Below are positions 3,193 through 20,936 of a stretch of 64,000 bases of DNA, in pieces. This DNA comes from Comamonadaceae bacterium. GTDB lineage: Bacteria; Pseudomonadota; Gammaproteobacteria; Burkholderiales; Burkholderiaceae_C. Under the pieces are notes generated by a model that ran no database searches, was not told the DNA's origin, and was given only the letters and a program-made list of their open reading frames with translations. A program made the translations under genes and the position numbers. The stretch lies in NCBI GenBank assembly GCA_027484105.1, contig JAIXUG010000015.1:1-64000 (forward strand). The letters run 5' to 3'. How positions within the stretch are numbered: the first letter of the stretch is position 1; every line of letters starts with the position of its first letter.

Positions 3193-3224
3193 GAGGGTTT
3201 CTCCTTGTGCGGCAAATTATCGTT

Positions 3225-3298
3225 GAAACGGGCCCGGGCTCGTTTCACATGGCGAAGCTGGCCAGGGCCAGATTCCGGCCGCCGGGGCAGGCCCTGGC
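3225..3298. repeat. Two inverted repeats between trpA and accD
   Basis: The trpA-accD gap contains an 11-bp palindrome (GAAACG.GCCC arms, 3225-3246, one mismatch) and a second inverted repeat with perfect 9-bp arms GCCAGGGCC (3261-3269) and GGCCCTGGC (3290-3298), ending 2 bp before the trpA stop. Neither is followed by a T tract, so a simple terminator is unlikely. They may stabilise a transcript end or tune accD expression relative to trp. Confidence 0.5.
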
Positions 3299-3300
3299 GC

Positions 3301-4110: not shown

Positions 4111-4120
4111 GTTCTGCCCC

Positions 4121-5404
4121 TTATTTGACGAAGTTCACAGGCTGCTCGCCACCTTTGACCGACTGGCCTTGGCAGCTGGGTCGGCAGAAAAAGTCGGCGT
4201 TCGACAAGTCGGCCACGGTGCCGATGTCCTTGTCGCCACGGCCCGACAGGTTGACCAGGATCGACTGGTCAGTGCGCATGGTTTTGGCCAGTTTCATGGC
4301 GTAGGCAATGGCGTGGCTGGATTCGAGCGCGGGGATGATGCCTTCGGTGCGACACAGGTAGTGGAAGGCTTCGAGCGCTTCCTGATCGGTGATGCCCACA
4401 TACTCGGCGCGGCCGATGTCTTTGAGGAAGGCGTGCTCGGGGCCCACGCCGGGGTAGTCCAGACCGGCGCTGACGCTGTGCGTTTCGGTGATCTGGCCGT
4501 TTTCGTCTTGCAAAATGTAAGTGCGGTTGCCGTGCAGCACGCCGGGGCTGCCCAGTTGCAGCGAGCAGGAGTGCTTGCCCGAATCCATGCCTTCGCCCGC
4601 GGCTTCCACGCCGATCAGGCGGGTGTTTTCGTAGGGAATATAGGGGTAGAAGATGCCCATGGCGTTGCTGCCACCGCCCACGCAGGCAATCACGGCGTCG
4701 GGCTGCTGTTCGGCCATCTTCAATGTTTTGAACATCTCGGGCATTTGGGTGAGGCACTCCTCGCCAATCACGCTCTGGAAGTCGCGCACCATCATGGGGT
4801 AGGGGTGTGGGCCTGCCACCGTGCCGATGATGTAGAAGGTGTTGTCCACATTGGCCACCCAGTCGCGCATGGCTTCGTTCAAGGCGTCTTTCAGGGTCTT
4901 GCTGCCCGACTCCACCGGCACCACGGTCGCGCCCAAGAGCTTCATGCGGTAAACGTTGGGGCTTTGGCGCTTGACGTCTTCGCTGCCCATGTACACCACA
5001 CACTCCAGCCCATAGCGCGCACAGATGGTTGCGGTGGCCACACCGTGCTGGCCCGCGCCGGTCTCGGCAATGATGCGCGGCTTGCCCATGCGCTTGGCGA
5101 GCATGGCCTGGCCGATGGTGTTGTTGATCTTGTGTGCGCCCGTGTGGTTCAGGTCTTCGCGCTTCAAGAAAATCTGCGCGCCACCCATCTCACGGCTCAT
5201 GCGGGCGGCGTGGTACACGGGCGAGGGACGGCCCACAAAGTGCGCCAGCTCGGACTTGAATTCGGCCATGAAGGCCGGGTCGTGCTGGTATTGGGCGTAG
5301 GCGGCTTTGAGTTCGTTGATGGCGTGCGTCAGGGTTTCGCTGACAAAGCTGCCGCCATACACGCCGAAATGGCCTTTGAGGTCGGGTTGTTGGTAGTCAA
5401 ACAT
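4121..5404 (-). CDS. trpB: Tryptophan synthase beta chain
   Basis: PLP enzyme that condenses indole with serine to tryptophan, in an alpha2-beta2 complex with TrpA. 427 residues, slightly longer than the roughly 400 usual because of a C-terminal tail ([20 protein letters not shown]). The PLP lysine is in [10 protein letters not shown] and the phosphate-binding loop is VGGGSNAMG. The start is the ATG at 5404 ([18 protein letters not shown]). It lies 87 bp downstream of trpF and 10 bp upstream of trpA. Confidence 0.98.
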
Positions 5405-5491
5405 GGTGTGTGGCTCTGTGAAGGTGGGGCCGCTCGGTGCATGCAGATGGCATGCGCTCCAAGTGCAAACTAAACGGACCCGAGGAATGCT

Positions 5492-6193
5492 TTAAAGGGG
5501 GAAGTCGTGGTCGGCGGTGCGCACCGCCTGGACAAATTGCCGCATTTTGTCGGCATCTTTCAGGCCCTTGCCTGCTTCGATGCCCGAGCTCACGTCAACG
5601 GCCAGTGACAGGCCGCGCGAGCGCAGCGCCCGAATGCCATCGGCCACGTTTGCAGGTGTGAGTCCACCAGACAAAACGAGGTGAGCATTGACGTTTGGTG
5701 GCAGCAGTGACCAATGGAATGTTTTCCCGCCGCCGCCGTATCCGTCGACGTGGGCGTCGAGCAGCAGGGCTTGGGCTTGATGGTGGAGGTGGGCAAATTC
5801 TAGCAAGTCGAAGTCGGCCACCTCGGACAGGGGGATTCGGGCGGCTTTGAGGTGCGGGCGGCCGGTGCGCTGGGTCATGGCCTCGCAAAATTCAGGCGAT
5901 TCGTCGCCATGGAACTGCAGCACAGCACCCGGCACAACCGCGCAAGCGGCGGCGATGCGCTCGGGCGTGTCGTTGACGAACAGCAGCACGGGCTGCACAA
6001 AGGCAGGCAGCAGCCGGGCCAGCTCGGCCGCAAGCTCGATGCTGACGCTGCGTGGGCTGGGGGGGTACAGCACAAAACCAATCGCATCGGCACCCGTTGC
6101 ACATGCGGCCAGCACGTCGGCCTCGCGGGTGAAGCCGCACATCTTGATGCGGGTGCGATGCTGGGGCGACAGGCGGTGTTCTGGCGAGGTCAT
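5492..6193 (-). CDS. trpF: Phosphoribosylanthranilate isomerase
   Basis: Third step of tryptophan synthesis: phosphoribosylanthranilate to CdRP. 233 residues from the chosen start. The TIM barrel begins with RIKMCGFTREADV, holding the catalytic Cys; LLLDAHVDGYGGGGKTF and LSGGLTPANV carry the catalytic Asp and phosphate-binding loops. I place the start at the ATG at 6193, which shares ATGA with the truA stop (translational coupling), rather than the ATG three codons upstream that would overlap truA further. Confidence 0.95.
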   Translation of the reverse strand: MTSPEHRLSPQHRTRIKMCGFTREADVLAACATGADAIGFVLYPPSPRSVSIELAAELARLLPAFVQPVLLFVNDTPERIAAACAVVPGAVLQFHGDESPEFCEAMTQRTGRPHLKAARIPLSEVADFDLLEFAHLHHQAQALLLDAHVDGYGGGGKTFHWSLLPPNVNAHLVLSGGLTPANVADGIRALRSRGLSLAVDVSSGIEAGKGLKDADKMRQFVQAVRTADHDFPL

Positions 6194-6975
6194 GGCAACC
6201 AATCAAAAACGGGTGTGGTGTCAGGCAAACCCCATTCAGGGCTGTAAATCGGCCCGGCAAAGTACAGGCCATCGGGCGAAAACGTGGGGGCGGCAGCATC
6301 CCGGCTTTTGGCCAGCAGCACTTCGCGCATCCAGTCGGGCGATTGCTGGCCCTGGCCAATGCTGACCAGGCAGCCCATGATGTTGCGGATCATGTGGTGC
6401 AAAAAGGCATTGCCTTCAAATTCAAAGCGCCAGTATGCCCCGCGTTTGGAAATGTCGATCTGACGCAGCGTCTTGACGGGCGACAGCGCCTGACAGCTGC
6501 TGGCCCGAAAGGAAGAAAAATCGTGTTCACCCAGCAAATGCTGGCTGGCTTGGCGCATCGCGTCTTCGTTCAGCGGGTGGTAGACCCAGCCCACACGGCC
6601 AGCTTCCAGGCTGGGGCGCACGCGCGAGTCGAGCAGCACGTAGATGTAGCGTCTGCCCAGGGCGCTGCCCCGGCAGTGGAAATTGCCCGGCACCACTTGG
6701 GCCCACTGCACCGCAATGTCAGACGGCAAATACCGGTTGGTGCCGCGCACCCAGGAATGGGGCTCGCGATCGATGTCGGTGTCAAAGTGCACCACCTGCA
6801 TCAGGCCGTGCACACCGGCGTCGGTGCGGCCTGCGCACAGGGTGCTGATGCGGGGCACATCGGCAAACAGGCTTAGGGCTTTTTCGAGCTTGTCCTGGAT
6901 GGTCAAACCCGTGCTTTGGCTTTGCCAGCCCTGGTAGGCCGTACCCGAATAACAAATGCCCAGCGCAAGTCTCAT
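6190..6975 (-). CDS. truA: tRNA pseudouridine(38-40) synthase
   Basis: Makes pseudouridine at positions 38-40 of tRNA anticodon stems. 261 residues, normal length. The catalytic Asp is in CAGRTDAGVHG (about residues 49-59); GICYSGTAYQGWQ near the N-terminus and FLHHMIRNIMGCLV near residue 200 are family signatures. Its stop overlaps the trpF start. In many Burkholderiales fimV lies directly upstream; here only 81 bp separate truA from asd. Confidence 0.96.
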   Translation of the reverse strand: MRLALGICYSGTAYQGWQSQSTGLTIQDKLEKALSLFADVPRISTLCAGRTDAGVHGLMQVVHFDTDIDREPHSWVRGTNRYLPSDIAVQWAQVVPGNFHCRGSALGRRYIYVLLDSRVRPSLEAGRVGWVYHPLNEDAMRQASQHLLGEHDFSSFRASSCQALSPVKTLRQIDISKRGAYWRFEFEGNAFLHHMIRNIMGCLVSIGQGQQSPDWMREVLLAKSRDAAAPTFSPDGLYFAGPIYSPEWGLPDTTPVFDWLP

Positions 6976-7056
6976 CGTGCAGGCCTTGGCCGTGTCCAGC
7001 GCATGAACGGCCCCAGCCAGGAGTTCAGTGCTGTGGACACACGGGTCATGGCGAGG

Positions 7057-8187
7057 TCAGGCGTCCAGCAAGATGCGCAGCATGCGGCGCAGCGGCTCGG
7101 CCGCGCCCCACAGCAGCTGGTCACCGATGGTGAAGGCGCCCACATATTCTGGTCCCATGGCCAGTTTGCGCACACGGCCCACCGGGATGGTCATGGTGCC
7201 GGTCACGGCCACAGGGGTCAGGTCGCGGATGGTGGCCTCGCGGGTGTTGGGCACCAGTTTGACCCACTCGTTGTCGGCGGCGATCATGGCCTCGATGTCG
7301 GCCACGGGCACGTCTTTTTTGAGCTTGAAAGTCAGGGCCTGGCTGTGGCAGCGCATCGCGCCCACCCGCACGCAGAAACCGTCCACGGGAATGGCGGCAG
7401 AGCCAAAGCCCTCGCCCATGCCCAGAATCTTGTTGGTTTCGGCCATGCCTTTCCACTCTTCCTTGGACTGGCCATTGCCCAAATCTTTGTCGATCCAGGG
7501 AATCAGCGAGCCACCCAGTGGCACGCCAAAATTGGCGGTCTCGGCAGCCGTCAAGGCACGCTGCTTGGCCACGACCATGCGGTCGATTTCGAGAATGGCG
7601 CTCTTGGGGTCGTCCAGCAGGGCTTTGACTTCGGCGTTCAGGGTGCCGTATTGGGTCAGCAGCTCGCGCATGTGCTGTGCGCCGCCGCCAGAGGCCGCTT
7701 GGTAGGTCTGGGTGCTCATCCACTCGACCAGACCGGCTTTGTAAAGGGCGCCTACGCCCATCAACATGCACGAGACGGTGCAGTTGCCGCCCACCCAGTT
7801 TTTGCCACCGTGGGCCAGGGCGTTCTTGATCACGGGCATGTTGACCGGATCGAGGATGATCACGGCGTCTTTTTGCATGCGCAGGGTTGAAGCGGCGTCG
7901 ATCCAGTGGCCATTCCAGCCTGCCGCGCGCAGCTTGGGGAAAACCTCGGAGGTGTAGTCGCCGCCCTGGGCGGTGATGATGATCTCGCAGCGCTGGAGCT
8001 GCTCCAGGTTGAAAGCGTCTTGCAGCGTGGTTTCGTTCTTGGCCATCGCAGGGGCTTTGCCGCCTGCGTTCGATGTGGAGAAGAACAGGGGCTCGATCAG
8101 GTCAAAGTCTTTTTCCTGAATCATGCGGTCCATCAGAACCGAGCCGACCATGCCGCGCCAGCCGACCAAACCTACTAACTTGCTCAT
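7057..8187 (-). CDS. asd: Aspartate-semialdehyde dehydrogenase
   Basis: Reduces aspartyl phosphate to aspartate semialdehyde with NADPH, the branch point to lysine, diaminopimelate, methionine and threonine. 376 residues. The NADP loop is at the N-terminus ([15 protein letters not shown]); the catalytic Cys lies in [23 protein letters not shown] is a family signature. In related genomes asd directly follows leuB on the same strand; here a transporter-deacylase pair and an 8-kb secretion island lie between them. Confidence 0.97.
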
Positions 8188-8279
8188 TTCAACGCCCTTT
8201 CAGTTTTTAAAACAGTGTTTGACCAGACTGTTTGCCCGGCTCGTCTGGCCGGGGAGGGCGCACGACGAACCAGGCCGGA

Positions 8280-8381
8280 TCAGCCCTTAATGGTCGTGGT
8301 TTTGGTGGTGATTGCACGCGCACCAACAGCCACTGCAGCGGCAGCGGTCAGGTTCAGGGTGAACAGGCGGGCGTGAAACAT
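8280..8381 (-). CDS. Possible small peptide downstream region of leuB/upstream of asd
   Basis: A 33-codon frame (start MFHARLFTLNL, then a short Ala/Val-rich hydrophobic stretch, end TTKTTTIKG) lies 92 bp upstream of asd on the same strand. The hydrophobic centre suggests a tiny membrane or exported peptide, but I see no convincing ribosome site and no lipobox. I do not recognise it. It may be chance, or an entericidin-like remnant of the kind sometimes found among leu genes. Confidence 0.22.
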   Translation of the reverse strand: MFHARLFTLNLTAAAAVAVGARAITTKTTTIKG

Positions 8382-8449
8382 GGGGCTTGATTGTAGCGGA
8401 TTGGCTGGCGTGGAACTGACAGCGGGCAGGGCGTCCCCGCGTAAACCCT

Positions 8450-8480
8450 TTGTTCCGGGCATGTTCGGGGTCCCTATACT
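8450..8480 (+). promoter_or_regulatory. Candidate sigma70 promoter for the transporter-deacylase pair
   Basis: TTGTTC at 8450-8455 and TATACT at 8475-8480, with a long 19-bp spacer, precede an AAGGAAA ribosome site and the ATG at 8499. The -10 is good; the spacing is poor. Confidence 0.35.
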
Positions 8481-8498
8481 TTTGGAAAGGAAATTCGG

Positions 8499-9374
8499 AT
8501 GACGGCACAACAACTGATCTTGAGCCTGGTGCTGGCCACCATGGTGTTTTCGGTGGCACTGGAATTGCGCATCGACGACTTCCGGCGGGTCGCCCAGACC
8601 CCGCGTGCGGTGCTGTGTGGCTTGATTCCCCAATTCATTTTGTTGCCGGTGGGTACCTGGTTGGCCACATTGGCGCTGGATTTGCCCGCCAACGTCGAGG
8701 CCGCGATGATCTTGGTGGCGGCCTGTCCGGGGGGCAGCCTGAGCAATGTGGTGACCCACATGGGGCGCGGCAACACGGCCTTGTCGGTCAGCATCTCAGC
8801 GGTGGCCAGTGTGCTGGCGCTGTTGGCCACGCCCTTCAACTTCAGCTGGATGATCGCGGCCAACCCCGAAACCGCATCCTGGTTGCGCGAGTTGTCGATC
8901 GACCCCTCCGGCATTTGGTTGAGCCTGGTGGCGCTCTTGGGCATTCCGCTGACGCTGGGGCTGTGGTTTTCGCACCGCCTGCCGGCTCTGACACAGCGCA
9001 TCCGCAAGCCGCTGGGCCGCTTTGCCGTGGGCGCTTTGATCTTGTTCATCGTCGCCGGGCTCATCAAGGAGCGGCAGTTGTTGACGCTCGGTCTCTTGCC
9101 CACCTTTTTGATGGTGGTGCTGCACAACGCCAGTGGCCTGTTTCTGGGCTGGGCCACAGCCCAAGCCATGCGCATGAACGAGCGGGACCGCCGGGCCATC
9201 ATGATCGAAGGCGGCATGCAGAACTCGGGCCTGGCGCTGGGCATCATCGCAGTGCAGTTTGGCAGCGATCTGGGCATGGTCACCCTGGCCAGCCTGTGGG
9301 GCATTTGGCACATCGTCAGCGGCATGGGCCTGGCCCTGTATTGGAGAAGAAAAGATGCTCGATTGCTTGATTAA
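8499..9374 (+). CDS. BASS-family (bile acid:sodium symporter-like) transporter
   Basis: A 291-residue inner-membrane protein with about nine or ten hydrophobic segments and the family pattern of two inverted five-helix repeats. Signatures include ALELRIDDFRR near the N-terminus, VAACPGGSLSNVV (about residue 85, crossover region of the first repeat) and EGGMQNSGLALGIIAVQFG (about residues 240-260, second repeat). Relatives move organic anions such as bile acids, pyruvate or pantoate with sodium; the substrate here is unknown. It overlaps the next gene by 20 bp, so the transporter probably supplies the deacylase substrate or exports its product. This is an inference from context only. Confidence 0.85.
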   Translation: MTAQQLILSLVLATMVFSVALELRIDDFRRVAQTPRAVLCGLIPQFILLPVGTWLATLALDLPANVEAAMILVAACPGGSLSNVVTHMGRGNTALSVSISAVASVLALLATPFNFSWMIAANPETASWLRELSIDPSGIWLSLVALLGIPLTLGLWFSHRLPALTQRIRKPLGRFAVGALILFIVAGLIKERQLLTLGLLPTFLMVVLHNASGLFLGWATAQAMRMNERDRRAIMIEGGMQNSGLALGIIAVQFGSDLGMVTLASLWGIWHIVSGMGLALYWRRKDARLLD

Positions 9375-11109
9375 GAACGGCACCGTGGTGGACGGCACGG
9401 GCGCACCCGCCCGTGTGGCCGATGTGGGTGTGCGCGGCGGCCGCATTGTGGCGGTAGGCCAGGTGGACGAAGCTGCCCAGCAAACCGTGGACGCCACAGG
9501 CCTGTGGATCACCCCCGGCTTTGTGGACATCCACACCCACTACGACGGGCAAGTGACCTGGGACGAGTGCTTCACCCCCAGCATCTACCACGGCGTGACC
9601 ACGCTACTCATGGGCAACTGCGGGGTGGGCTTCGCGCCCAAACGCCCGGGTCATGAAGGCGACCTGATCAAGCTGATGGAGGGCGTGGAAGACATTCCGG
9701 GTGCGGCGCTGCACGAGGGCATCCGCTGGAATTGGGAAAGCTTTCCGCAGTACATGGACGCGCTGGCCGCCACGCCGCGCAGCCTGGACTATTTGGTGCA
9801 GGTGCCGCACGACCCCTTGCGCATGTATGTCATGAAGGAGCGCGCCCTGGCCCACGAGAAGGCCACGGCGCAAGACATCGAGGCCATGCGCTCGCTCTTG
9901 CGCGAAGCCCTGCAGGCCGGTGCCGCCGGGTTCAGCACCGGGCGCAGCGACAACCACCGCACCTCCGAGGGCAAGGACACACCCGCCGCGAATGCAGGCA
10001 ATGACGAATTGACGGGTCTGGCCCAGGCCTTTGAGGGCTTAAGCCACGGCGTGGTGCAGATCGTGAGCGACTTCAACCTGCTGAACGGCCCCGATCAGTT
10101 CGATGCCGAGTTCGACAGCGTGGAGGCGCTGGCGCGGGCCAGCGGCAAACCGGTGTCCATGACCTGGCTGCAGCGCGACCCGGGGGGCGAGCAGTACCTG
10201 AAAATCCAGCAGCGGGTCGAAGCGGCGGTGCAGGCGGGCCTGCCGCTCTACATGCAAACGGCGGTTCGGGGCATTGGCGTGCTCAATGGTCTGGATGCCA
10301 GTTTTCACCCCTTCATGGGCTTTCCGTCCTACAAGGAAGTCGCCCATTTGCCTTTGGCCGAACGCGCCCAAGCGTTGCGCGATCCGGCGCGCAAGGCCCG
10401 CATCTTGTCGGAAAAGTCCGAGCGCCTGGCCGGAGACGGCAGCGCCATCCCGCCGCTGGTGGACATTTTGCTGGCCAAGATCGACATGATCAGTGGGCGC
10501 ATGTTCGCGCTGGAGAACACGCTCAATTACGAGCCCTCGGTCATGCAGAGCTTTTTGGTGCGGGCCAAGCAGGCGGGCATCACCCCGCTGGAGGCGATTT
10601 ACGACCACCTGAGTGCGGGCACCGGCGAGGGCCTGATTTATTTTCCGATCTTCAATTACAACGAGGGCTCACTCGACGCGGTGCGCCGCATGCTGGCCCA
10701 CCCCAGAGCGCTCAGCAGCCTGAGCGATGCGGGTGCCCACGTGGGCACGGTCTGCGATGCCAGCTTCCCGACCTTCATGCTCACGCACTGGGTGCGCGAC
10801 CGTGGGCGCGAATCTGTATCGCTTGAAACAGCGGTGGAGATGCTCACGAGCCGCAATGCCCGGTACCTGGGCTTGTCCGACCGTGGCGTGATCGCGCCGG
10901 GCATGCGCGCCGACCTGAACGCCATCGACCCCCAGCGCTTGAGCTTGGGCCTGCCCCGCTTGGTGCGCGACTTGCCTGCAGGCGGCAAGCGCTTTGTGCA
11001 AAAGGCCGAAGGCTATGTGGCCACCTGGGTGGCGGGCGAGCAGGTGCAGCGCGAAGGCGAGATCACCGCAGCCCGCCCGGGTCGCTTGGTGCGCATGGGC
11101 CAAATCTGA
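9355..11109 (+). CDS. N-acyl-D-amino-acid deacylase (amidohydrolase superfamily)
   Basis: A 584-residue metal-dependent amidohydrolase. The N-terminal urease-like beta sandwich (MLDCLIKNGTVVDGTG) is followed by the metal site HTHYDG (about residues 59-64), an acidic Cys-containing region (MGNCGVGF) as in D-aminoacylases, and a later DAGAHVG that carries the catalytic Asp. Such enzymes hydrolyse N-acyl-D-amino acids or related amides; the exact substrate cannot be read from sequence. The ATG at 9355 has GGAG 8 bp upstream and lies inside the transporter 3' end (translational coupling). Confidence 0.85.
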   Translation: MLDCLIKNGTVVDGTGAPARVADVGVRGGRIVAVGQVDEAAQQTVDATGLWITPGFVDIHTHYDGQVTWDECFTPSIYHGVTTLLMGNCGVGFAPKRPGHEGDLIKLMEGVEDIPGAALHEGIRWNWESFPQYMDALAATPRSLDYLVQVPHDPLRMYVMKERALAHEKATAQDIEAMRSLLREALQAGAAGFSTGRSDNHRTSEGKDTPAANAGNDELTGLAQAFEGLSHGVVQIVSDFNLLNGPDQFDAEFDSVEALARASGKPVSMTWLQRDPGGEQYLKIQQRVEAAVQAGLPLYMQTAVRGIGVLNGLDASFHPFMGFPSYKEVAHLPLAERAQALRDPARKARILSEKSERLAGDGSAIPPLVDILLAKIDMISGRMFALENTLNYEPSVMQSFLVRAKQAGITPLEAIYDHLSAGTGEGLIYFPIFNYNEGSLDAVRRMLAHPRALSSLSDAGAHVGTVCDASFPTFMLTHWVRDRGRESVSLETAVEMLTSRNARYLGLSDRGVIAPGMRADLNAIDPQRLSLGLPRLVRDLPAGGKRFVQKAEGYVATWVAGEQVQREGEITAARPGRLVRMGQI

Positions 11110-11137
11110 CGCACTTCATTTTTGAAACGTCCGAAAT

Positions 11138-11173
11138 AAAAAGCCCGGCCACCTTTGCAGGTGCCGGGCTTTC
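11138..11173 (+). terminator. Bidirectional terminator after the deacylase gene
   Basis: AAAGCCCGGC and GCCGGGCTTT arms with an inner ACCT/AGGT pair form a strong hairpin 28 bp after the deacylase stop. It lies between that gene and the displaced leuB end, so before the island arrived it would have served both converging transcripts. Confidence 0.75.
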
Positions 11174-11204
11174 TTGTTGGCGGAGCTTGATCAGCCGATT
11201 TTGA

Positions 11205-11291
11205 TCAGCCCAGCGCCTTGACCACCGCATCACCCATTTCGCGGGTGCCGACTTTGGTCGTGCCTTCGCTCCAGATGTCGCCGGTGCGCAG
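11205..11291 (-). pseudogene. leuB: Displaced 3' end of leuB (29 codons)
   Basis: These 87 bp encode the last 28 residues and stop of 3-isopropylmalate dehydrogenase. The protein is identical to the end of the intact gene at 19851-19937 (begins [10 protein letters not shown], ends VVKALG). At DNA level 80 of 87 bases match, and all seven differences are silent third-position changes. Similarity stops abruptly at both ends. This is most simply the original leuB end, pushed away when the secretion island entered. It has no start codon of its own. Confidence 0.93.
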
Positions 11292-11620
11292 TCTATTTTC
11301 AATGGCTGAAATGCCCTCCATCAGCTCTTGGGGTTGTTGTAGAAGCTAGAAGAGGGACAGGTCGGCACCACCTTGATAGCCGATAACGCCAACATCCGAC
11401 ACGATCCACGGGTATGTGTGACGGTTTCATATGTGTTCTAAATGGTTGCTATCCCGCGCAGGGCTTTGGGCATGTCGTCAGTATTGCGGGCAGTGACTGC
11501 GCCAACCTGCCCATTATTGAATGGGTCAGCGGTTTTTCGGTGGCGGAAGACCTGGCAGGGCGACAGAGGGCAGTTTTGGCCTATTTGCCGGAAATAAAGC
11601 ATCCTGATGTTGTTGATTGA
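11292..11620 (+). other. Unassigned stretch at the island edge with one weak ORF
   Basis: Between the displaced leuB end and the tpsB promoter I recognise no gene. One frame, 11414-11620, could encode 68 residues (start MCDGFICVLNG, end EIKHPDVVD) but lacks a ribosome site and any motif I know. On the minus strand the leuB fragment frame continues upstream for about 17 codons into unrelated sequence before a stop. It looks like decayed accessory DNA. Confidence 0.3.
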
Positions 11621-11623
11621 AAA

Positions 11624-11651
11624 TTGTTATTTAAGACGTTTTTGTTAAGAT
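11624..11651 (+). promoter_or_regulatory. Candidate promoter of the two-partner secretion genes
   Basis: TTGTTA (11624-11629), a 16-bp spacer and TAAGAT (11646-11651) lie in a sharply AT-rich patch about 40 bp before tpsB. GATAATGACAAT (11649-11660), overlapping the -10, resembles two of the three GATAAT-type hexamers of a Fur box with one mismatch; the third hexamer is not evident. Iron control is therefore only a possibility. Confidence 0.4.
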
Positions 11652-11689
11652 AATGACAATTTAATCAATCATTTCAGATAGGTATAAGT

Positions 11690-13453
11690 TTGCGGAAAAT
11701 CGCCTTGAACCTTATCTGCAAACTCGCTATGAATCACGCACATCAAACGGCACCATCTGCCCTCAGCATTCTGAATCAGGCAATACACGGGGTGTGCCAA
11801 ACAGCAGGGCTTTACCTGCTGCTCGCCACAGCCGTTCATGCGCAAACACCGCCCTCGCCGGGTAGCATCAGTCGCCAAGTGATGCCCGAACTCTCGCCAG
11901 CCATACCCGCAGCGCGGGCAGAACAACCCGCAAAGTCCAGGCGTCCATCGGCTGCACCTGGCGCTACCGTTGTCAGTGTTCAGCAGTGGGTTCTTGAAGG
12001 CAGTACCCTGCTGAATCAGGCCGAAGTCGACGAATTGCTCAAACCTCTGACGGGCGTCGGTGTCACTCTTCAGCAAATTCAGGAAGCGGCGGCAAAGGTT
12101 CAGCGAGCCTATGAGGCCAGCGGGTGGTTGGCTCGCGTTTTTTTGCCGCCGCAAGACGTGATCAACGGTGTTGTTCGCATGCAGGTGCTCGAAGCCAAGC
12201 TGGGTGCCGTGGTCTTAGGGCGTGCTGAAGCTGGGGCTGTGCCACGCGTGCGGCCTGAGGTGGTTCAAGCCGTCGTCAACCATTCCTTGACACCAGGTGG
12301 TGTGCTGAACACGCGGCTGGTCAATCGCGGGTTGTTGCTGGCCGATGATTTGAACGGTGTCAATGTCACGGGGCAGCTCATGACTGGGGCGACACAGGGC
12401 AGCACGGATGTTTTGGTGAACGCCGTGAACGAACGCCCCTGGAAATTTGAAGCCGGGGTGGACAATGGCAATGCCCGTTCGGTGGGGGCTTGGCGGGCCG
12501 TAGTTTCTGCTCAGTGGCTCAGTCCGTCGGGCAGAGGAGAGAGCTATTCGGTTCAGACACTGAAATCCGAAGGTGCCGACTTCCTGCGCTTGGGGGCCAG
12601 TGCGCCACTGGGCAGCAGTGGCCTGACTGGCAATTTGGCCGTCAGTCAAATGAACTACAAGGTGGTCACACCTGGTGCAAATGGTGCTGTGCCCCGCATT
12701 GAGGGTGGTGCCCAAAATCTGAGCACCGATTTGGCTTACCCCTTGCTGCGTTCAAGAAGCCAGAACCTTTACCTCACTGCTGGATTCGAGCAGCGCGATT
12801 ACAACAGCTTTGTAGAAGACAGTAAGCAAAGCGACTACCGGGTGAACGCCTTCAACATGGGGCTGAGCGGTAACCAATTTGACGACTTTGGCGGGGGCGG
12901 ATCCAACGCCTACAGCTTGGGTCTGGTGAGCGGCCGTGTCAGCAAGCGCGACCCCAACTCCAACAACGACGAAGCCACCTTGGGCCAATACAGCAAGCTG
13001 CGTTGGGCGCTGTCGCGTCAGCAAAATCTGGGGGCAGGTCTGAGTTTGTTGGTGGGTATGCAGGGCCAATACACAGGCAGCAAGCCGCTTGACAGCTCTG
13101 AAAACCTGATACTGGGTGGTCCTAGCGGTGTGCGTGCCTACCCCGTCGGAGAAGCCAGCGGTCCCCAAGGCGTATTGACGACTGTGCAGCTGCGCTGGGC
13201 GGTCACGCAGCAATGGCAAATCACGCCATTTGTGGACCACGGCCGCGTGCAAAAGCGCAACGATGACAACCTGCGCGCCTACAGCCTTCAGGGTGCAGGC
13301 TTGGTGGTGACCTGGACTGGCCCCAACGGGTGGCTGGCCAGGGCCACTTACGCCCGCCGGTCTGGCGCCAACCCCAATCAGAGGTCTGGAAAAGACCAGG
13401 ACGGCTCCCTGATTCAAGACCGCCTGTGGGTCAGTCTCAGCCGTTCGTTCTGA
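11690..13453 (+). CDS. TpsB-type outer-membrane pore (FhaC/ShlB family)
   Basis: Two-partner secretion translocator that exports the adjacent TpsA across the outer membrane. Up to 587 residues. A signal peptide ends near residue 51 (LYLLLATAVHA); a Pro/Ala linker follows; two POTRA domains span about residues 93-245 (VQQWVLEGSTLLNQAEV; the second ends near NAVNERPWKFEA), then a 16-strand barrel ending in the terminal Phe of SLSRSF. The conserved L6-type motif appears as VRAYPVGEASG. The start is uncertain: TTG at 11690 has AGGT upstream; the next ATG is at 11729. Only 67 bp separate it from tpsA, so the pair is an operon. Confidence 0.9.
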   Translation: MRKIALNLICKLAMNHAHQTAPSALSILNQAIHGVCQTAGLYLLLATAVHAQTPPSPGSISRQVMPELSPAIPAARAEQPAKSRRPSAAPGATVVSVQQWVLEGSTLLNQAEVDELLKPLTGVGVTLQQIQEAAAKVQRAYEASGWLARVFLPPQDVINGVVRMQVLEAKLGAVVLGRAEAGAVPRVRPEVVQAVVNHSLTPGGVLNTRLVNRGLLLADDLNGVNVTGQLMTGATQGSTDVLVNAVNERPWKFEAGVDNGNARSVGAWRAVVSAQWLSPSGRGESYSVQTLKSEGADFLRLGASAPLGSSGLTGNLAVSQMNYKVVTPGANGAVPRIEGGAQNLSTDLAYPLLRSRSQNLYLTAGFEQRDYNSFVEDSKQSDYRVNAFNMGLSGNQFDDFGGGGSNAYSLGLVSGRVSKRDPNSNNDEATLGQYSKLRWALSRQQNLGAGLSLLVGMQGQYTGSKPLDSSENLILGGPSGVRAYPVGEASGPQGVLTTVQLRWAVTQQWQITPFVDHGRVQKRNDDNLRAYSLQGAGLVVTWTGPNGWLARATYARRSGANPNQRSGKDQDGSLIQDRLWVSLSRSF

Positions 13454-13457
13454 AGCG

Positions 13458-13466
13458 CCCCCCCCC
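13458..13466 (+). repeat. C9 homopolymer between tpsB and tpsA
   Basis: Nine consecutive C residues lie 4 bp after the tpsB stop and about 55 bp before the tpsA start. Runs of this length can slip during replication; here a length change would alter the intergenic leader, not a reading frame. Confidence 0.8.
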
Positions 13467-13520
13467 GAACCCTGCCGTTTAGACGGTTCCACTCTTTTTT
13501 GGCGCACAAGCCCTCTTGCC

Positions 13521-16500
13521 ATGAATTCAATTTGCAAAGTCGTCTGGAGCGAAGTCCACCAGCAGCTGGTGGTGGTGTCCGAACTGGTCAGGTCAGGTGG
13601 CAAAACCCACAGCAGCCGCAGCGCAAGCCCTCGGGGGCAGACCCTGGCGGTTGATGCCTGGCAACCCAGAGCGCTTTGTCTGGCCTTGGCGCTCGGTCTG
13701 GGCGCTGTTCAAGCCCAAACGGCCCCCACAGCGCTTCCCACAGGCGGCAATGTGAGTGCCGGACAGGCCAGCATCAGCCAAAGCGGCGCCAACATGGTGA
13801 TCAACCAGAGCAGCCAGCGCGCAGCCATCAACTGGCAAAGCTTCAATGTGGGTGCCGATGCCCATGTACAGTTCAACAACGGAAGTGGCACCACCCTCAA
13901 CCGTGTCACCGGCCCGGAGGCCAGCACCATCGCGGGGCGTATCAGTGCCACTGGGCAGGTGATCATCAGCAACGGCAACGGCGTGTTGTTCACGCCTGGC
14001 AGCCGCATCGATGTAGGGGGCCTGGTGGCCACGACCCACGCCATCAGTGACCAGGCCTTCATGGCGGGCGGCAACTTGCGATTTGAGCGCAGTGGCAGCA
14101 CGGCCAGTGTGGTGAACGAAGGCGCGATCACGGCTAGCCTGCAGGGCTATGTGGCCTTGCTCGCCCCTGAAGTGCGCAACAGCGGGGTGATTGTGGCGAG
14201 CAAAGGCACAGTGGCCCTGGCCGCTGGCGAAGCGGTCACCCTGCGTCTCAATGCCAATGACCAGCTGCAGGGCGTGGTGGTGGAAGGCGGTGCATGGCAA
14301 GCACTGGTGGAAAACCGGCATGTGGTTGAAGCACCAGGGGGGGTGGTCATCCTGTCCGCCAAGGCCTTGTCCAGTGTGCAAGGCGGCGTGATCAACAACA
14401 CCGGCACAATCGAGGCCACCCAGTTAAACCACGTGAATGGCGTGGTTCGGTTGGAAGCGAGCCAAGCGGTACTGCAAACGGGCACGGTGCGTGCACCGAG
14501 CATTGCGGTGGAAACCCGTAACTTCATCGATGCTGGCACCTGGGATGCCAGTGCCTTGGGTAACAGCGCCAACGCTGCCAACGCCGGTGGCAGCATCCAG
14601 GTCATTGCCAGTGGCAGCGTAGAGCAAACCCAGTCGGCCCAGATGCGTGTGGATGGGGCACAGGGCGGCAGCATCCGTATCGTGGCGCAAGAGAGCGCTT
14701 ACATCTCGGGCACCCTCAGCGCGAACGGTGGCAGCACGACGGGGGGTGATGTGTCATTGACGGCCCCCAGCCTGGGTGTGGCGGGTGCCACGATCAGTGC
14801 AGATGGGCAAACCGGCGGTGGTCGCATCCGCATTGGCGGCGGCTGGCAAGGCCGCGACCAAGACTTGCCCAACGCAGCCAAAACCACAGTCTCAGGAAGC
14901 AGCATCCAAGCCAATGCCACCCAAAGCGGCAACGGTGGCACTGTGGTGGTGTGGTCGGATCAACGCACCCAATACGCCAGCAGCATCCAGGCCAAGGGGG
15001 GGGTATCCGGTGGTGATGGTGGCCGGGTTGAAATCTCCAGTCACGGCAACTTTCAGTCAAAAGGCGCGGTGGATGTGACCGCCCCCAACGGCGCAGCGGG
15101 TGCAGTGTTGTACGACCCTGCCAACATTGAGATCGTGAGCAGTCTTTCCGGGTTGACGACACTGTCGTTGTCTGACAGTTTGGCTGCAAACCGCTACTTG
15201 GGCAACAGTTCCGTCACAGAATTGCTCAATGGGATTCCCAACACGACCGGCAACTCACTTGAAGGTGTCCCCACTACCTTCGGACTTACGGCTGTTCCCA
15301 ATTATTCAGGCGTTACTGCCTTGGGCCGTGTCATGGTCGCCAGCAGCGACGACTCAACCGTTGCTTCCAGAGCCGGATCCATCCGAATTTTCAATGCCAC
15401 GACGGGTGCCTTGATCTCGAATCTGACGGGTTCTAATGTTGATGATCGAGTTGGTTCTGGGGTCGTTGTCAATTTGGGTGACGGCAAGTATGTCGTGACA
15501 TCACCGTTATGGGGTGGGGGGACCGCTGGAACTGCTGCAACCGCCAGAGGGGCAGTGACTTGGATAAATGGCAGTGTGGGTTTGTCTGGTGTGGTGTCCA
15601 GCGGCAACTCGCTGGTTGGTGATCAAGCGGGTGACAATGTAGGGGGGAACACCCTTTTCCCGAGTAACAGCGTTCAGGTCCTGACCAATGGCAATTATGT
15701 TGTCAGGTCCCAACATTGGCGGGGTGGATCCACTGCTGCCAACGCCTTGGGGGCCGTCACTTGGGGCAGCAGAAGCACAGGTACTACGGGTGTCGTGGGT
15801 GCAAGCAACTCTCTGGTAGGAAGCACTGTTGGTGATCAGGTTGGCGCAGGGAATGTCATTGCATTGAGCAATGGAAATTACCTTGTCGTATCTCCAGACT
15901 GGAATAACGGGGGAGTTGCCGATGTGGGGGCTGTTACGTGGGCAAACGGTAGCACGGGTATTACCGGCAACATATCCGTCAGCAACTCCCTGATAGGCAG
16001 CACAGCAGGCGATCAAGTTGGACGTGGACATGTAAGTAGGATGGTTGTGGCCTTGACCAACGGAAATTACGTCGTGGCTTCAACTAATTGGGATAACGGT
16101 GCAGCTTCTAATGCTGGTGCGGTGACCTGGGGCAATGGCACGACGGGTACTTTTGGCGTGGTGTCCGTCGGCAACTCCTTGGTGGGAAGCACAGCGTTTG
16201 ATCAAATTGGAAACCTGGGCATCAGAGCGTTAGCCAATGGCAATTTCGTCGTGTCTTCACCTAATTGGGATAACGGTGCAGCTTCTAATGCTGGTGCGGT
16301 GACCTGGGGCAATGGCACGACAGGCCTTACCGGCGTGGTGTCCGCCAATAACTCCTTGGTAGGTGATGCGACAAACGATCTCGTAGGCAACGGACATTGG
16401 ATCATAGCGCTCACCAATGGCAATTACGTGGTGCGATCGCCCCAATGGCGTGGACAACGAGGCGCAGCGACATGGGCTGATGGCAGTACGGGCATCACTG

Positions 16501-19500
16501 GCGTGGTTTCCGCTGGCAACTCCTTGGTGGGTAGTACAGCAGATGACCAGCTAGGCTTCGCAGGCATTTTTGCTTTGAGCAATGGGAATTACGTGGTTGC
16601 CACGCCCACTTGGAATAACGGTAGCGTAGTCAAGGCGGGTGCAGTGACTTGGGGTAATGGCCTTGGAGGTACGGTGGGTCAGGTATCCAATGCCAATTCC
16701 CTCATTGGAGATCAATTGCTCGATCAAGTGGGCGGCGGCGTGCTCCCCTTAAACAATGGCCATTATGTTGTAAGGTCACCAAATTGGAGGACCGGAGCGA
16801 CTCCGAACGATGGCTTGGGTGCTGTGACTTGGGGCAACGGTACGACGGGTACGACTGGCGTCGTGTCCCCCCTTAACTCCTTGGTCGGCAGCGCTGGGGG
16901 TGATCGCGTTGGTATGGCCTTGTTCGGACTGGTGAATGGTCACTATGTGGTGAGGTCCGAAAACTGGGGTAGTACAGGGCAGAGTACAGTCAACGGAAAA
17001 GGCGCTGTCACCTGGGGTAGCGGAACGGGCGGCACGGTTGGCCAAGTCAGTGCGGCCAATTCTCTGGTTGGGCTTAATGCCGGCGACAGAGTTGGAGGTA
17101 CAGGTATCACGGCATTGACCAACGGCCATTATGTGGTGCGTTCGGAGCACTGGGGCAGTGCTGGTGTTTCAAATGCTGGATGGGGCGCGGTCACCTGGGG
17201 TAACGGAACGGGGGGGACGGTTGGGGCAGTATCAGCAGCAAACTCACTGATAGGTTCTGCCGCAGGTGATCGGGTGGGTATCACAGGTGTGACCGGTTTG
17301 GTTAACGGAAATTATCTGGTTCGGTCATCGTTTTGGGGTAGTATGAATGTGGCCAACTCATTAGGTGCAGTGACCTGGGGTAATGGAACTGTGGGCACTG
17401 TTGGCCAGGTATCTGCAACCAACTCTCTGATGGGTGCTCTGGCAGGTGACCGTGTCGGCAGTGGCAATGCCGTGACCCTTATGGATGGCCGGGCCTTGGT
17501 GGCGTCGCCATTTTGGCAGAGCAATTCACTGGCCAATGTGGGCCGGGTCGATATCGTTAATGGCTCTAGCCCTGTAAGTTTGACCTCTACCTTGGCATTC
17601 AGCACCAATCCAGATGCCACCAGTTATGTGTTGACCAGTGACCTGCTCAACCTGCTCAATGCAGGTACGGCGGTCAGGTTGCAGGCCAACAACGACATCA
17701 CCGTTTCATCAGCATTTTCAACCACAGGCACAGGGTCGCTCACGCTCAACGCAGGCCGTTCGGTGCTGTTGAATGCCAGCATTAGCCTGAGCAATGCCGA
17801 TCTTTCGATCATAGGCAACGAATGGGTGACGCCGGTCAACGGTGTGGGCGGTGGTGTGATTGATGCTTATCGTGCCAGCGGACCCGCGGTCATCACGCAG
17901 GCTGCAAATACCAGCCTGAGTGTTGGCACAGGCGATCTGTCGGTGATCTTGCGTGCATCGGGCAATGCGGGAAAGACGAATCAGGATACGGGGGCCATTA
18001 CCCTGCGATCGTTGTCTGGTGCCAACGCCTCTGTCATCAACGGCGGGACCACTGCAGGCAGCAGTGTGTCATTGGGAACGGTCAATGCCACTGGCAACTT
18101 GTCAGCGGTCAGTAACGGGATTCTTGATCTGGGCACCAGCACGGTGGGGGGTAATCTGAGTGCCAACAGCAACAACGGCAACATCGTTCAGACGGGTGCG
18201 CTGACGGTCACTGGCACCAGCAACCTGAACGCAGGCACGGGCAACATCACGCTCACCAATGCGGCGAACGACTTCACAGGTGCGGTGTCGGCCACAGGTG
18301 CAGCAGTCAGCATGACCGATGTCAACGCGCTGACGCTGGGCACGGTCTCCAGCAGTGGAAACCTGACGCTGAACAACTCCGGCCCCTTGAATCTGGGCAC
18401 CAGCACGGTGGGGGGTGACCTCAATGCCACCAGCAACAACGGCAACATTTCGGCCAGTGGCGCCGTGACAGTTAGTGGCGTCACCAATCTGAACGCCGGT
18501 ACCGGTTCGGTCTCGGTTTCGGGGCCGCCGCCAGCACCTGCACCTGCACCTGCACCTGCACCATCGTTGGTTTTGGCTTCTCTCACAACTGCCGCACAAA
18601 TCCAAGCGTTGACCAGTGCCCAGATTGCGGGCTTGAGCAATGCAGAGGTGCAGAGTCTGACCGCTAGCCAAATGGGTTTTTTCACGCCCTCTCAAATGAG
18701 CTATTTTTCTGCGGCTCAATTGCAACTTCTGACCGCTTCGCAGGTGCAGGGCCTCTTTGCTGCTCAGATTGCTGGACTGAATACTTCCCAGTTGGTCAGC
18801 TTGGCATCATTACTGAACCCTGGGCAAATACAGGCACTCAGTCCAAACCAACTGAATAGTCTGAGTCCATCGCAGCTTGCCAGTTTGGTGGGGTCGTTGT
18901 CGGCGTCCCAGGTGCAGTTGTTGAGCGTGACCCAGCTGAGCGGCCTGAGCCCATCGCAGCTTGCCAGCTTGGCGGGCTCGATGAGCGCTGCTCAGCTGCA
19001 GTCGCTGAGCCCAGCGCAACTGGGTGGTTTGAGTGCTGCGCAGGTGGCCAGTTTGGTGGGTTCGCTGTCGGCGTCACAGGTGCAGTTGTTGAGCGTGACC
19101 CAGCTGAGCAGCCTGAGCCCATCGCAGCTTGCCAGCTTAGTGGGCTCGATGAGCGCTGCCCAGCTGCAGTCGCTGAGCCCAGCTCAGCTGGGTGGTTTGA
19201 GTGCTGCGCAGGTGGCCAGTTTGGTGGAGTTACTGTCCAGGGCGCAATTGCAGTCACTGACCTACGAACAATTGAAACAGTTGAGTTCTAAGCAAGTGGC
19301 CAGATTGGCTGCTTCAATGACGACCTCCCAGTTGCAGGCACTGACCGCCTCTGGTCTGAGTGGGAAGCTGTTCAATCAATTGACCCAATCCCGAACAACG
19401 ATGGGTGCCATAGACAAGTTCAATATTTCGCATGTGACTTCAAGAGGCGACTCTCCCATTCAGGGCGTCAGCGTCATTGTGCAAAATTCGGCTCTTACAA

Positions 19501-19784
19501 ATTTACCCACGAGGGTCATGGTTTCATTGCCATTTGGTTCTGCAAGCAGCGGAAAAGGGTTTAATTTCTCCTTGCCTGAGACCCTGCGGTCTGGTGCGGG
19601 TCAAGGAGAGGTGTTTCAGGCCACACGAGCCGATGGTACGGATTTCCCAGCTTGGTTGAAATTCGATCGATCAAACATGAAACTGGATGCCAGCGCAGTA
19701 CCCATGGGGGCATTGCCACTCGAGATCGCTTTGGTGCTGGGTGGGCAACGGACTTTGATTCAAATTGCAGAGCGAGCCGAGTAA
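13521..19784 (+). CDS. TpsA exoprotein: large adhesin-like protein with FhaB-type secretion domain
   Basis: A 2087-residue secreted protein, probably an adhesin. Residues 1-25 form an extended signal peptide region (ICKVVWSEVHQQLVVVSEL); the signal ends near residue 65. The TPS secretion domain spans about 68-320 (INWQSFNVGADAHVQFN, NGNGVLFTPGSRIDVGG), followed by beta-helix repeats to about 590. Residues about 600-1345 hold eleven copies of a 55-67-residue unit built around NYVVRSPNW, GAVTWGNG and NSLVG. More beta-helix sequence leads to a Pro-Ala hinge (about 1668-1682), then an octad repeat of the form [LIV]xxLSxxQ (about 1690-1950). The last 120 residues look Ig/cadherin-like (PAWLKFDRSN). 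No toxin domain is evident. Confidence 0.9.
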   Translation: MNSICKVVWSEVHQQLVVVSELVRSGGKTHSSRSASPRGQTLAVDAWQPRALCLALALGLGAVQAQTAPTALPTGGNVSAGQASISQSGANMVINQSSQRAAINWQSFNVGADAHVQFNNGSGTTLNRVTGPEASTIAGRISATGQVIISNGNGVLFTPGSRIDVGGLVATTHAISDQAFMAGGNLRFERSGSTASVVNEGAITASLQGYVALLAPEVRNSGVIVASKGTVALAAGEAVTLRLNANDQLQGVVVEGGAWQALVENRHVVEAPGGVVILSAKALSSVQGGVINNTGTIEATQLNHVNGVVRLEASQAVLQTGTVRAPSIAVETRNFIDAGTWDASALGNSANAANAGGSIQVIASGSVEQTQSAQMRVDGAQGGSIRIVAQESAYISGTLSANGGSTTGGDVSLTAPSLGVAGATISADGQTGGGRIRIGGGWQGRDQDLPNAAKTTVSGSSIQANATQSGNGGTVVVWSDQRTQYASSIQAKGGVSGGDGGRVEISSHGNFQSKGAVDVTAPNGAAGAVLYDPANIEIVSSLSGLTTLSLSDSLAANRYLGNSSVTELLNGIPNTTGNSLEGVPTTFGLTAVPNYSGVTALGRVMVASSDDSTVASRAGSIRIFNATTGALISNLTGSNVDDRVGSGVVVNLGDGKYVVTSPLWGGGTAGTAATARGAVTWINGSVGLSGVVSSGNSLVGDQAGDNVGGNTLFPSNSVQVLTNGNYVVRSQHWRGGSTAANALGAVTWGSRSTGTTGVVGASNSLVGSTVGDQVGAGNVIALSNGNYLVVSPDWNNGGVADVGAVTWANGSTGITGNISVSNSLIGSTAGDQVGRGHVSRMVVALTNGNYVVASTNWDNGAASNAGAVTWGNGTTGTFGVVSVGNSLVGSTAFDQIGNLGIRALANGNFVVSSPNWDNGAASNAGAVTWGNGTTGLTGVVSANNSLVGDATNDLVGNGHWIIALTNGNYVVRSPQWRGQRGAATWADGSTGITGVVSAGNSLVGSTADDQLGFAGIFALSNGNYVVATPTWNNGSVVKAGAVTWGNGLGGTVGQVSNANSLIGDQLLDQVGGGVLPLNNGHYVVRSPNWRTGATPNDGLGAVTWGNGTTGTTGVVSPLNSLVGSAGGDRVGMALFGLVNGHYVVRSENWGSTGQSTVNGKGAVTWGSGTGGTVGQVSAANSLVGLNAGDRVGGTGITALTNGHYVVRSEHWGSAGVSNAGWGAVTWGNGTGGTVGAVSAANSLIGSAAGDRVGITGVTGLVNGNYLVRSSFWGSMNVANSLGAVTWGNGTVGTVGQVSATNSLMGALAGDRVGSGNAVTLMDGRALVASPFWQSNSLANVGRVDIVNGSSPVSLTSTLAFSTNPDATSYVLTSDLLNLLNAGTAVRLQANNDITVSSAFSTTGTGSLTLNAGRSVLLNASISLSNADLSIIGNEWVTPVNGVGGGVIDAYRASGPAVITQAANTSLSVGTGDLSVILRASGNAGKTNQDTGAITLRSLSGANASVINGGTTAGSSVSLGTVNATGNLSAVSNGILDLGTSTVGGNLSANSNNGNIVQTGALTVTGTSNLNAGTGNITLTNAANDFTGAVSATGAAVSMTDVNALTLGTVSSSGNLTLNNSGPLNLGTSTVGGDLNATSNNGNISASGAVTVSGVTNLNAGTGSVSVSGPPPAPAPAPAPAPSLVLASLTTAAQIQALTSAQIAGLSNAEVQSLTASQMGFFTPSQMSYFSAAQLQLLTASQVQGLFAAQIAGLNTSQLVSLASLLNPGQIQALSPNQLNSLSPSQLASLVGSLSASQVQLLSVTQLSGLSPSQLASLAGSMSAAQLQSLSPAQLGGLSAAQVASLVGSLSASQVQLLSVTQLSSLSPSQLASLVGSMSAAQLQSLSPAQLGGLSAAQVASLVELLSRAQLQSLTYEQLKQLSSKQVARLAASMTTSQLQALTASGLSGKLFNQLTQSRTTMGAIDKFNISHVTSRGDSPIQGVSVIVQNSALTNLPTRVMVSLPFGSASSGKGFNFSLPETLRSGAGQGEVFQATRADGTDFPAWLKFDRSNMKLDASAVPMGALPLEIALVLGGQRTLIQIAERAE
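15420..17560 (+). repeat. Eleven-copy protein repeat array inside tpsA
   Basis: GAVTW or GAATW recurs eleven times with 55-67 residues between copies; each unit also carries G[NH]YVVxS and NSLxG. I believe the family is the one catalogued as DUF5649, from memory. Two adjacent units share 61 identical bases (16084-16144 and 16261-16321), evidence of fairly recent duplication. This stretch is richer in A and T than the flanking core genes. Confidence 0.85.
18534..18562 (+). repeat. GCACCT hexanucleotide microsatellite encoding the Pro-Ala hinge
   Basis: Four full copies plus five bases of GCACCT encode alternating Ala and Pro. Copy-number change would lengthen or shorten the hinge by two residues without changing frame. 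Confidence 0.9.
18891..19226 (+). repeat. Tandem 168-bp duplication in the octad-repeat stalk of tpsA
   Basis: Residues 1791-1846 and 1847-1902 are two adjacent 56-residue blocks, each beginning G-S-L-S-A-S-Q or the start of its variant and nearly identical in protein and DNA. Each block holds five 8-residue units and 12-residue variants. The second copy degenerates at its end (LVELLSRAQLQ). Confidence 0.85.
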
Positions 19785-19807
19785 GGCTTGAAATGCGAGC
19801 TGCCCAT

Positions 19808-19835
19808 AAAAAATGCGCCTCACGGCGCATTTTTT
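19808..19835. terminator. Bidirectional terminator between tpsA and leuB
   Basis: AAAAAATGCGCC and GGCGCATTTTTT form a perfect 12-bp stem with a TCAC loop. T tracts on both strands let it end both the tpsA transcript and the convergent leu transcript. Confidence 0.9.
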
Positions 19836-19850
19836 GGCTGGTAGATAGCT

Positions 19851-20936
19851 TCAGCCGAGGGCTTTGACCACCGCATCACCCATTTCACGGGTGCCCACTT
19901 TGGTGGTGCCTTCGCTCCAGATATCGCCGGTGCGCAGGCCTTGGGCCAGCACTTTCTGCACCGCGGCTTCGATGCGCTCGGCTGCTTCGCCCTGGTTCAG
20001 GCTGAAGCGTAGCATCATGGCGGCTGACAAGATGGTGGCCAGAGGGTTGGCGATGCCTTTGCCCGCGATGTCGGGGGCGCTGCCGTGGCTGGGCTCGTAC
20101 AGGCCTTGGTTTTTCGTGTTCAGGCTGGCCGAGGGCAGCATGCCAATCGAGCCGGTGAGCATGGACGCTTCGTCACTCAGGATGTCGCCGAACATATTGC
20201 CGGTGACCACCACGTCAAAGCGCTTGGGCTCTTTGACCAGTTGCATGGCAGCGTTGTCCACGTACATGTGGTCCAGCGCGATGTCGGGGTATTGCTGGCC
20301 GACTTCGGTGACCACGTCTTTCCAGAACTGGAAGGTTTCCAGCACGTTGGCTTTGTCCACGCTGGTCACGCGGCCCTCTTTGCCTGCGGCCTTGCGCTTG
20401 CGGGCGGCTTGGAAGGCCACGTGCGCGATGCGCTCGATCTCGGGCTTGGAGTAGCGCATGGTGTCAAAGGCTTCCTCGGCACCGGGGAAGTGGCCGTCGG
20501 TGGCCACACGGCGGCCGCGTGGCTGGCCGAAGTAAATGTCGCCCGTGAGCTCACGGATGATAAGGATGTCCAGGCCCGCGATCAGCTCGGGCTTGAGGCT
20601 GGACGCGCCCACCAGCTGCTCGTAGCAAATGGCAGGACGGAAGTTGGCGAAAAGGCCCATGTTCTTGCGCAGGCCCAAAATCGCTTGCTCGGGGCGCAGG
20701 GGGCGGTCGAGCTTGTCGTATTTCCAGTCGCCCACCGCACCAAACAGCACGGCGTCAGACGCCATGCCCAACTTGAGTGTGGCTTCGGGCAAAGGGTGGC
20801 CAAACGCGTCATAGGCGGCGCCACCGACCAGGGCGGTTTCGATCTCGAACTTCAGGTCGAGGGCGTTCAAGACTTTGACGGCTTCGGCGACGATTTCGGT
20901 GCCGATGCCATCACCGGGGAGGACTGCGATTTTCAT
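19851..20936 (-). CDS. leuB: 3-Isopropylmalate dehydrogenase
   Basis: NAD-dependent oxidative decarboxylation in leucine synthesis. 361 residues, normal length. The N-terminus reads [16 protein letters not shown]; substrate-binding arginines lie around [10 protein letters not shown] and the family signature is near [19 protein letters not shown]. Complete and apparently functional, but its last 29 codons are duplicated at 11205-11291 with seven silent differences. The 3' end was therefore probably supplied by the incoming island. It follows leuD by 17 bp. Confidence 0.98.

Follow-up and report, generated by a model that had tools for sequence, protein, structure and literature searches.

A secretion island between two copies of the leuB 3′ end

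The window analysed here is a 64,000-nucleotide stretch from a Comamonadaceae bacterium (GenBank assembly GCA_027484105.1, contig JAIXUG010000015.1, positions 1 to 64,000), and our subject is an island of two-partner secretion (TPS) genes that lies at the 3′ end of leuB and is flanked on its far side by a second copy of that end. The leuB gene (19851..20936, minus strand) is an intact isopropylmalate dehydrogenase gene of 361 aa, with leuB-type matches in 60/60 genomes; its last 28 codons would be island-borne. Downstream of its end lie tpsB (11690..13453, plus strand), which encodes the outer-membrane transporter, and tpsA (13521..19784, plus strand), which encodes a 2,087-aa secreted exoprotein, so that both plus-strand genes point towards the minus-strand leuB. 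Beyond the tpsBA pair follow the copy of the leuB tail, a hairpin terminator, an amidohydrolase gene, a transporter gene and asd.

Direct alignment of the two stretches shows that the present leuB tail (19851..19937, minus strand) recurs at 11205..11291 (minus strand), 8.6 kb from the present end of leuB, with 80/87 bases equal. The repeat comprises the last 28 codons of leuB plus the stop, and is limited by the stop codon at one end and by the first base of a Leu codon at the other. All seven differences are silent, and both minus-strand translations are identical. These features, including the sharp ends, had been noticed in a sequence-only reading of the window and are borne out here. Since a search of the window's own genome returned the repeat at exactly two places (E 7e-40 and 3e-30), a chance match is excluded.

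Copies of the tail were then sought in other genomes. The 87-bp DNA query matched 32/60 genomes, and second matches outside the window genome were either short (31 bases in G021 and G035) or weak (73% in G036). The 28-aa tail matched 86/90 genus genomes at E≤1. Besides the window's genome, only G105 has a second match below E 1e-3, which lies in a 367-aa open frame and is therefore not a fragment; second tail matches in four further genus genomes reach E 0.3–0.7. In the family sample the tail was matched in 375/399 genomes at E≤0.001, and the two genomes besides the window's with a second match both carry it in long open frames (524 and 551 aa). The 4/90 genus and 24/399 family genomes that gave no match at all are uninformative.

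The empty site in relatives

The sequence-only reading had predicted island-free relatives in which a single leuB runs into the terminator and the amidohydrolase gene. We fetched 63 leuB loci, one each from 63 of the 89 other genus genomes searched, and found this arrangement in 19 of them, with the amidohydrolase gene within about 72–103 bp of leuB. In 39/63 loci leuB is followed by asd within 75–261 bp. Among the other five, L037 ends 169 bp past leuB, while L048, L049, L099 and L126 carry other inserts. For L116, in which leuB is cut by a contig end, a gap of about 79 bp was worked out by hand. The secretion gene tpsB was found in 0/63 of the fetched leuB stretches, some of which are short.

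The spacer behind the displaced tail is also shared with relatives. It extends from that tail to the amidohydrolase gene (11110..11204), contains the hairpin terminator (about 11138–11173), and matches L096 and L107 at 63/66 positions each, L119 at 62/66, L041 at 60/66 and L040 at 58/66, while the remaining 14 amidohydrolase loci score 35–46 of 66. The flank at 7000–11204 matches all five genomes tried at 88–90%, split over two contigs in G086. On the other side, the sequence after the present leuB tail is like that of no fetched relative (best 24/66, ungapped). Because of the empty site and the shared spacer, we take the fragment, the terminator and the amidohydrolase gene to be the native side, and leuB's present tail to have come with the island. 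A single leuB equal to the 19851 version at all seven differing sites would have spoken against this assignment; none of the 63 site strings has this form, with those of ten loci (L048 and L055–L063) out of register and uninformative.

The leuB–asd gap holds other sequences among the relatives. The block of amidohydrolase and transporter genes (8499–11109) itself comes and goes. In L099, leuB is immediately followed by a defence cluster of about 10 kb (2186–12077) that comprises a type I restriction-modification set (restriction, methylation and specificity genes), a PDC-S02 protein and PtuA- and PtuB-like proteins; further loci carry 5.3, 1.6 and 0.9 kb in the gap. In L037 (G029) the usual spacer is lost after position 3597 and an open frame begins before the contig end, which looks like the start of a mobile element. 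A displaced leuB tail was not seen in these leuB–asd-gap inserts of relatives.

Origin of the two tails

One possible explanation of the repeat is that 87 bp were duplicated locally when the island inserted and that both copies then diverged. We regard this as very unlikely. The decay of a free copy should mostly change the protein, yet all seven differences are silent; under local duplication with neutral decay of one copy, a simple model with three transition weights gives this outcome a probability of 0.0016–0.0034. In addition, neither copy carries, at any of the seven sites, a base that is foreign to the leuB of relatives (53/63 loci put in register). The earlier preference for a foreign origin of the incoming end over local duplication is thus supported.

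Local duplication does have a real case to its credit, in Janthinobacterium lividum PAMC 25724 (L163), where a TPS island lies between direct repeats of 102 bp (9348–9449 and 17849–17950). Judged from reading of the sequences, this island contains TPS genes with a putative sulfotransferase gene and a putative adenylylsulfate kinase gene. The repeats, which consist of the start of a LysR-type gene plus its promoter, are equal at 98/102 positions, and the repeat stretch is matched in 36/40 genomes. In 19/19 relatives with loci given, nothing separates the LysR gene from the MFS-type transporter gene that it faces, which constitutes the empty site. Set against these relatives, two of the four differences are departures of the LysR-side copy and lie in its transporter half, one is a departure of the transporter-side copy within its LysR start, and the last falls at a site that is variable in the relatives themselves. 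All three departures affect the part that the respective copy no longer needs. L163 thereby fits duplication in place, and the leuB case does not. A second pair of repeats in L163 (65 bp, 92%, 8344–8408 and 19293–19356) is found a little further out than the first, on the outer sides of the LysR and MFS genes.

A total of 108 TPS loci, the window included, were tested for flanking gene-end repeats, and only the window and L163 were positive; many of these loci stop at contig ends, and misses are possible. Repeats in L197 (72–84% identity) were set aside as probably paralogous genes, and matches in L150 and L208 (26–30 bp) were set aside as too short.

An apparently recurrent island edge in metagenome proteins

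A 46-aa open frame that spans the junction of the island edge with the displaced tail served as a protein query. Ninety proteins were listed, and 23 were read, including the window's own P0123. One of them, P0124, is a 65-aa protein on a 1,519-bp ENA metagenome contig that reads ...GVIGYQGGADL...PQELMAGISAIGNR and then continues into a 28-residue leuB tail. The window counterpart of its first part is DVGVIGYQGGADLSLF, followed by a stop and further residues, and is joined at the same codon to the window's own native tail. The tail of P0124 is the exact leuB tail of 8/63 relatives. Judging from these two junctions, it appears that one and the same island edge was joined, at a single position, to native leuB tails of two kinds. 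Finding this breakpoint twice speaks for a site-specific crossover close to where the repeat begins.

Not every breakpoint falls there, however: in P0187 (three contigs) and P0171 the leuB tail follows another edge sequence (ELMLIARNWQKFGSLPRVP), and the join lies three codons earlier than in the window. These proteins possibly represent a second kind of insertion at leuB. The other proteins read were ordinary leuB ends, some of them truncated by a contig end or carrying a frameshift further upstream, except for P0132 and P0137. Each of these two is a one-off fusion on a short contig, and the left part of P0137 reads like the reverse strand of a leuB tail.

Mobile carriers were searched as well. 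Among viral contigs, no locus related to leuB, the tpsB alignment, P0187 or P0124 was found. A plasmid search with the window DNA returned 12 records with stray matches covering ≤3% of the query. Against plasmids, only the leuB part of P0124 was matched in the 20 records listed of 30, and against phages only the leuB part of P0187, in 5/5 records.

Proposed mechanism and alternatives

We propose a model for the origin of the arrangement. An incoming element would have carried tpsBA together with its own copy of the last 28 leuB codons and recombined with the leuB gene already present, close to the beginning of the repeat. The tail brought in by the element, which would derive from a related but different lineage, would have completed leuB with the protein unchanged, and the resident tail, with the terminator and the amidohydrolase gene behind it, would have been left at the far end of the element as the 87-bp remnant. 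The crossover would most likely have been site-specific, as for e14 in icd, with a recombinase that acted in trans or has since been lost. We hold this account, including its site-specific crossover, to be probable, with moderate confidence. It builds on the repeat, the empty site in relatives, the native continuity on the fragment side and the absence of secretion genes from the other leuB loci fetched; the import, the position of the core and the recombinase we infer. The core of the sequence-only reading, an element with TPS genes and its own leuB end that displaced the native one, gains support from the empty sites and the spacer continuity. That reading had left homologous recombination and a lost integrase equally open; P0124 and the e14/icd parallel now tilt the balance towards the site-specific route.

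The first 14 bases of the leuB homology are identical in both copies and form a candidate crossover core, present beside the island edge (11278..11291, minus strand) and, as a putative second copy, inside leuB (19924..19937, minus strand); its placement follows the analogy with the 11-bp core of e14. At the first differing site the present tail has a T that is rare in relatives (2/53). If this T came with the island, the crossover lies within the first 14 bases or upstream, like that of e14, a conclusion that a later mutation to T would weaken.

Several results weigh against the proposed model. No integrase, excisionase or transposase was recognised among the two large island genes and the scanned edge open reading frames (ORFs), and the earlier remark that no integrase is visible thus stood up to domain and family scans of tpsB, tpsA and the short ORFs. 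For this reason we do not file the island as a prophage or as a strict integrative element. The donor was not found either: no fetched relative's leuB joins the 19851 tail to its downstream sequence. An isolated leuB tail was seen only in the window genome among the 90 genus and 399 family genomes, so that there is no second case, and P0124 is known from a single 1,519-bp contig that could be an assembly chimera. The stretch fetched behind leuB is short in some relatives (169 bp in L037, 362 in L096 and 545 in L114). The edge holds a near-palindrome that scores 10 of 14, but 21/1073 leuB windows do at least as well, so that it is nothing exceptional. G+C content at third codon positions is 62–65% in the island genes versus 81–84% in leuB and the amidohydrolase gene, but the leuC-holding ORF, at 69.0%, is close to the island's values, and composition is therefore weak evidence. 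Finally, the leuB ends of relatives had been expected to match the 11205–11291 version. This holds for L096 (84 v 80 of 87 for the fragment and the present tail) and L041 (83 v 78), and fails across the 19 amidohydrolase loci, which average 76.9 for the fragment v 77.2 for the present tail (the fragment is the nearer copy in 7 loci and the present tail in 10, with 2 ties). Since the seven silent sites alone do not tell which copy is native, it is synteny that carries this argument.

The main rival is insertion driven by homology without any recombinase. Donor DNA with leuB followed by tpsBA could have entered the chromosome through homologous recombination in leuB at one end and an illegitimate join at the other (homology-facilitated illegitimate recombination, HFIR), or a circle with a leuB tail could have integrated by a single crossover. 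This requires no integrase, and none is seen; moreover, leuB is 86–91% identical to that of 22 of the 31 relatives compared, which is enough for homologous exchange. HFIR is reported for conjugation in E. coli and for three species with natural competence (PMC3240628), is proposed for type VI secretion system arrays (PMC5361080), and resembles the present case as a gene-anchored insertion that leaves resident sequence beyond it; circular intermediates, on which the other route depends, are proposed for rhs displacement in PMC2935791. However, an illegitimate join should vary in place and leave scattered breakpoints, whereas P0124, on its one short metagenome contig, repeats the window's edge and its codon of junction in front of a different leuB tail. 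Nor does the nearest relative switch anywhere along leuB, although divergence of about 10% from the nearest relatives weakens this test. We consider homology-driven insertion unlikely, though a serious contender. Two further explanations concern the order of events and the assembly. The secretion genes may have stood behind leuB first, with the block of leuB tail, amidohydrolase and transporter genes arriving later. The 39/63 relatives with asd next to leuB and no amidohydrolase block show that this block is itself variable, but secretion genes at leuB occur in 0/63 fetched relatives and the amidohydrolase gene there in 19/63, and such a reversed order is highly improbable. A chimeric assembly that joined an unrelated contig at the leuB tail could be suspected because the window genome is split into 29 contigs and assembly errors tend to arise at repeats; both junctions, however, lie inside one 90-kb contig, and a like edge junction occurs independently in P0124. 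We hold a chimera to be highly improbable as well.

Going beyond the window, it is tempting to speculate that small integrase-less mobile islands use the last leuB codons as a fixed site across related betaproteobacteria, each with a spare tail by which leuB of the host stays functional. The window and P0124 would then be independent insertions, and P0187/P0171 a second edge type. We put this forward only tentatively.

Comparison with known systems

The closest parallel is the cryptic prophage e14 in icd of E. coli K-12, beyond which the displaced icd tail is found as icdC. In both cases the gene is restored by the element's own 3′ end, the native tail remains as a pseudogene at the far end, and the differences are mostly silent. 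The targets are homologous dehydrogenase genes, and icd and leuB align along their length as homologues. Comparing the icd tail of E. coli K-12 with icdC, we measured 12 differences over 165 bp, 10 of them silent, with the first at base 12. The same 12 differences, 10 synonymous, are given in PMC4759930, where an 11-bp repeat at the start of the homology is inferred to be the site of site-specific recombination. The window differs in its target, leuB, and in the homology, which is 87 bp long and starts about 26 codons nearer the stop; its cargo is tpsBA, and no integrase, excisionase or phage genes were recognised. The arrangement is thus e14-like, with another target, unusual cargo and no visible integrase. 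CTGCGC occurs in both cores, to which we give no weight because in both it represents Leu-Arg codons. Phage 21 also inserts at icd. The text of the phage SfI paper does not mention icd.

A second parallel is the displacement of rhs C-terminal tails (Jackson 2009, PMC2935791), in which the resident tail gives way to an incoming one and ends up silent further downstream. In rhs, tails differ from one another and are themselves the cargo, whereas in leuB the protein is unchanged and the cargo lies beside the tail.

A search of literature listings with narrow terms, with most subscription papers outside its scope, found no report of leuB as an insertion site and nothing on two-partner secretion in Limnohabitans, a freshwater Burkholderiales genus to which the window's organism possibly belongs. 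One mention of leuB in these listings turned out to be a strain genotype.

If the proposed model holds, leuB would be, besides icd, another dehydrogenase gene at whose 3′ end elements land, the newcomer in this case being a secretion system rather than a phage. As a relic from which both the resident and the incoming allele can be told, the displaced tail would make donor lineages directly searchable. A further lesson would be that mosaicism can hide in the end of a core gene that looks intact, and that a gene fragment beside an island may mark the boundary when no integrase is left.

Cargo and neighbouring features

Two-partner secretion is also known as type Vb secretion. In the window, tpsB with POTRA_2 and ShlB domains adjoins tpsA with a TPS domain and ESPR, the domain make-up of two-partner secretion systems; nothing about the pair is unusual except its placement. 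A domain scan of tpsA also found DUF5649 and DUF5650, the latter in 11 matched stretches, and the protein contains ALTTAQ repeats; it may be adhesin-like. The closest relatives of tpsB in a protein collection are 91% (JGI) and 89% (NCBI and another source) identical, among the 120 top matches of 776. Other genomes of the genus reach 38% at most, a second copy in the window genome 39%, and named GTDB genomes 48% and 43%. By these matches, the island lacks a near relative in the genus sample, with related pairs present in other assemblies.

The left edge of the island (11292..11689) has 46.5% G+C versus 63.1% in the flank. A search of 59 further genomes from the genus and order gave no relative of this edge, and the 399 family genomes gave one weak 37-bp match. 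It contains a 68-aa open frame of unknown function (11414..11620, plus strand), with no Pfam or PHROGs family at E≤1 and one metagenome relative (P0122, 75%). Rfam returned nothing at the gathering score over 11000–20000. The right edge (19785..19850), from tpsA to the leuB stop codon, contains a hairpin. On the native side, the amidohydrolase gene (9355..11109, plus strand) is followed by a transporter gene (8499..9374, plus strand), which we take to be of the BASS type, and by the far neighbour asd (7057..8187, minus strand), named from gene order and sequence.

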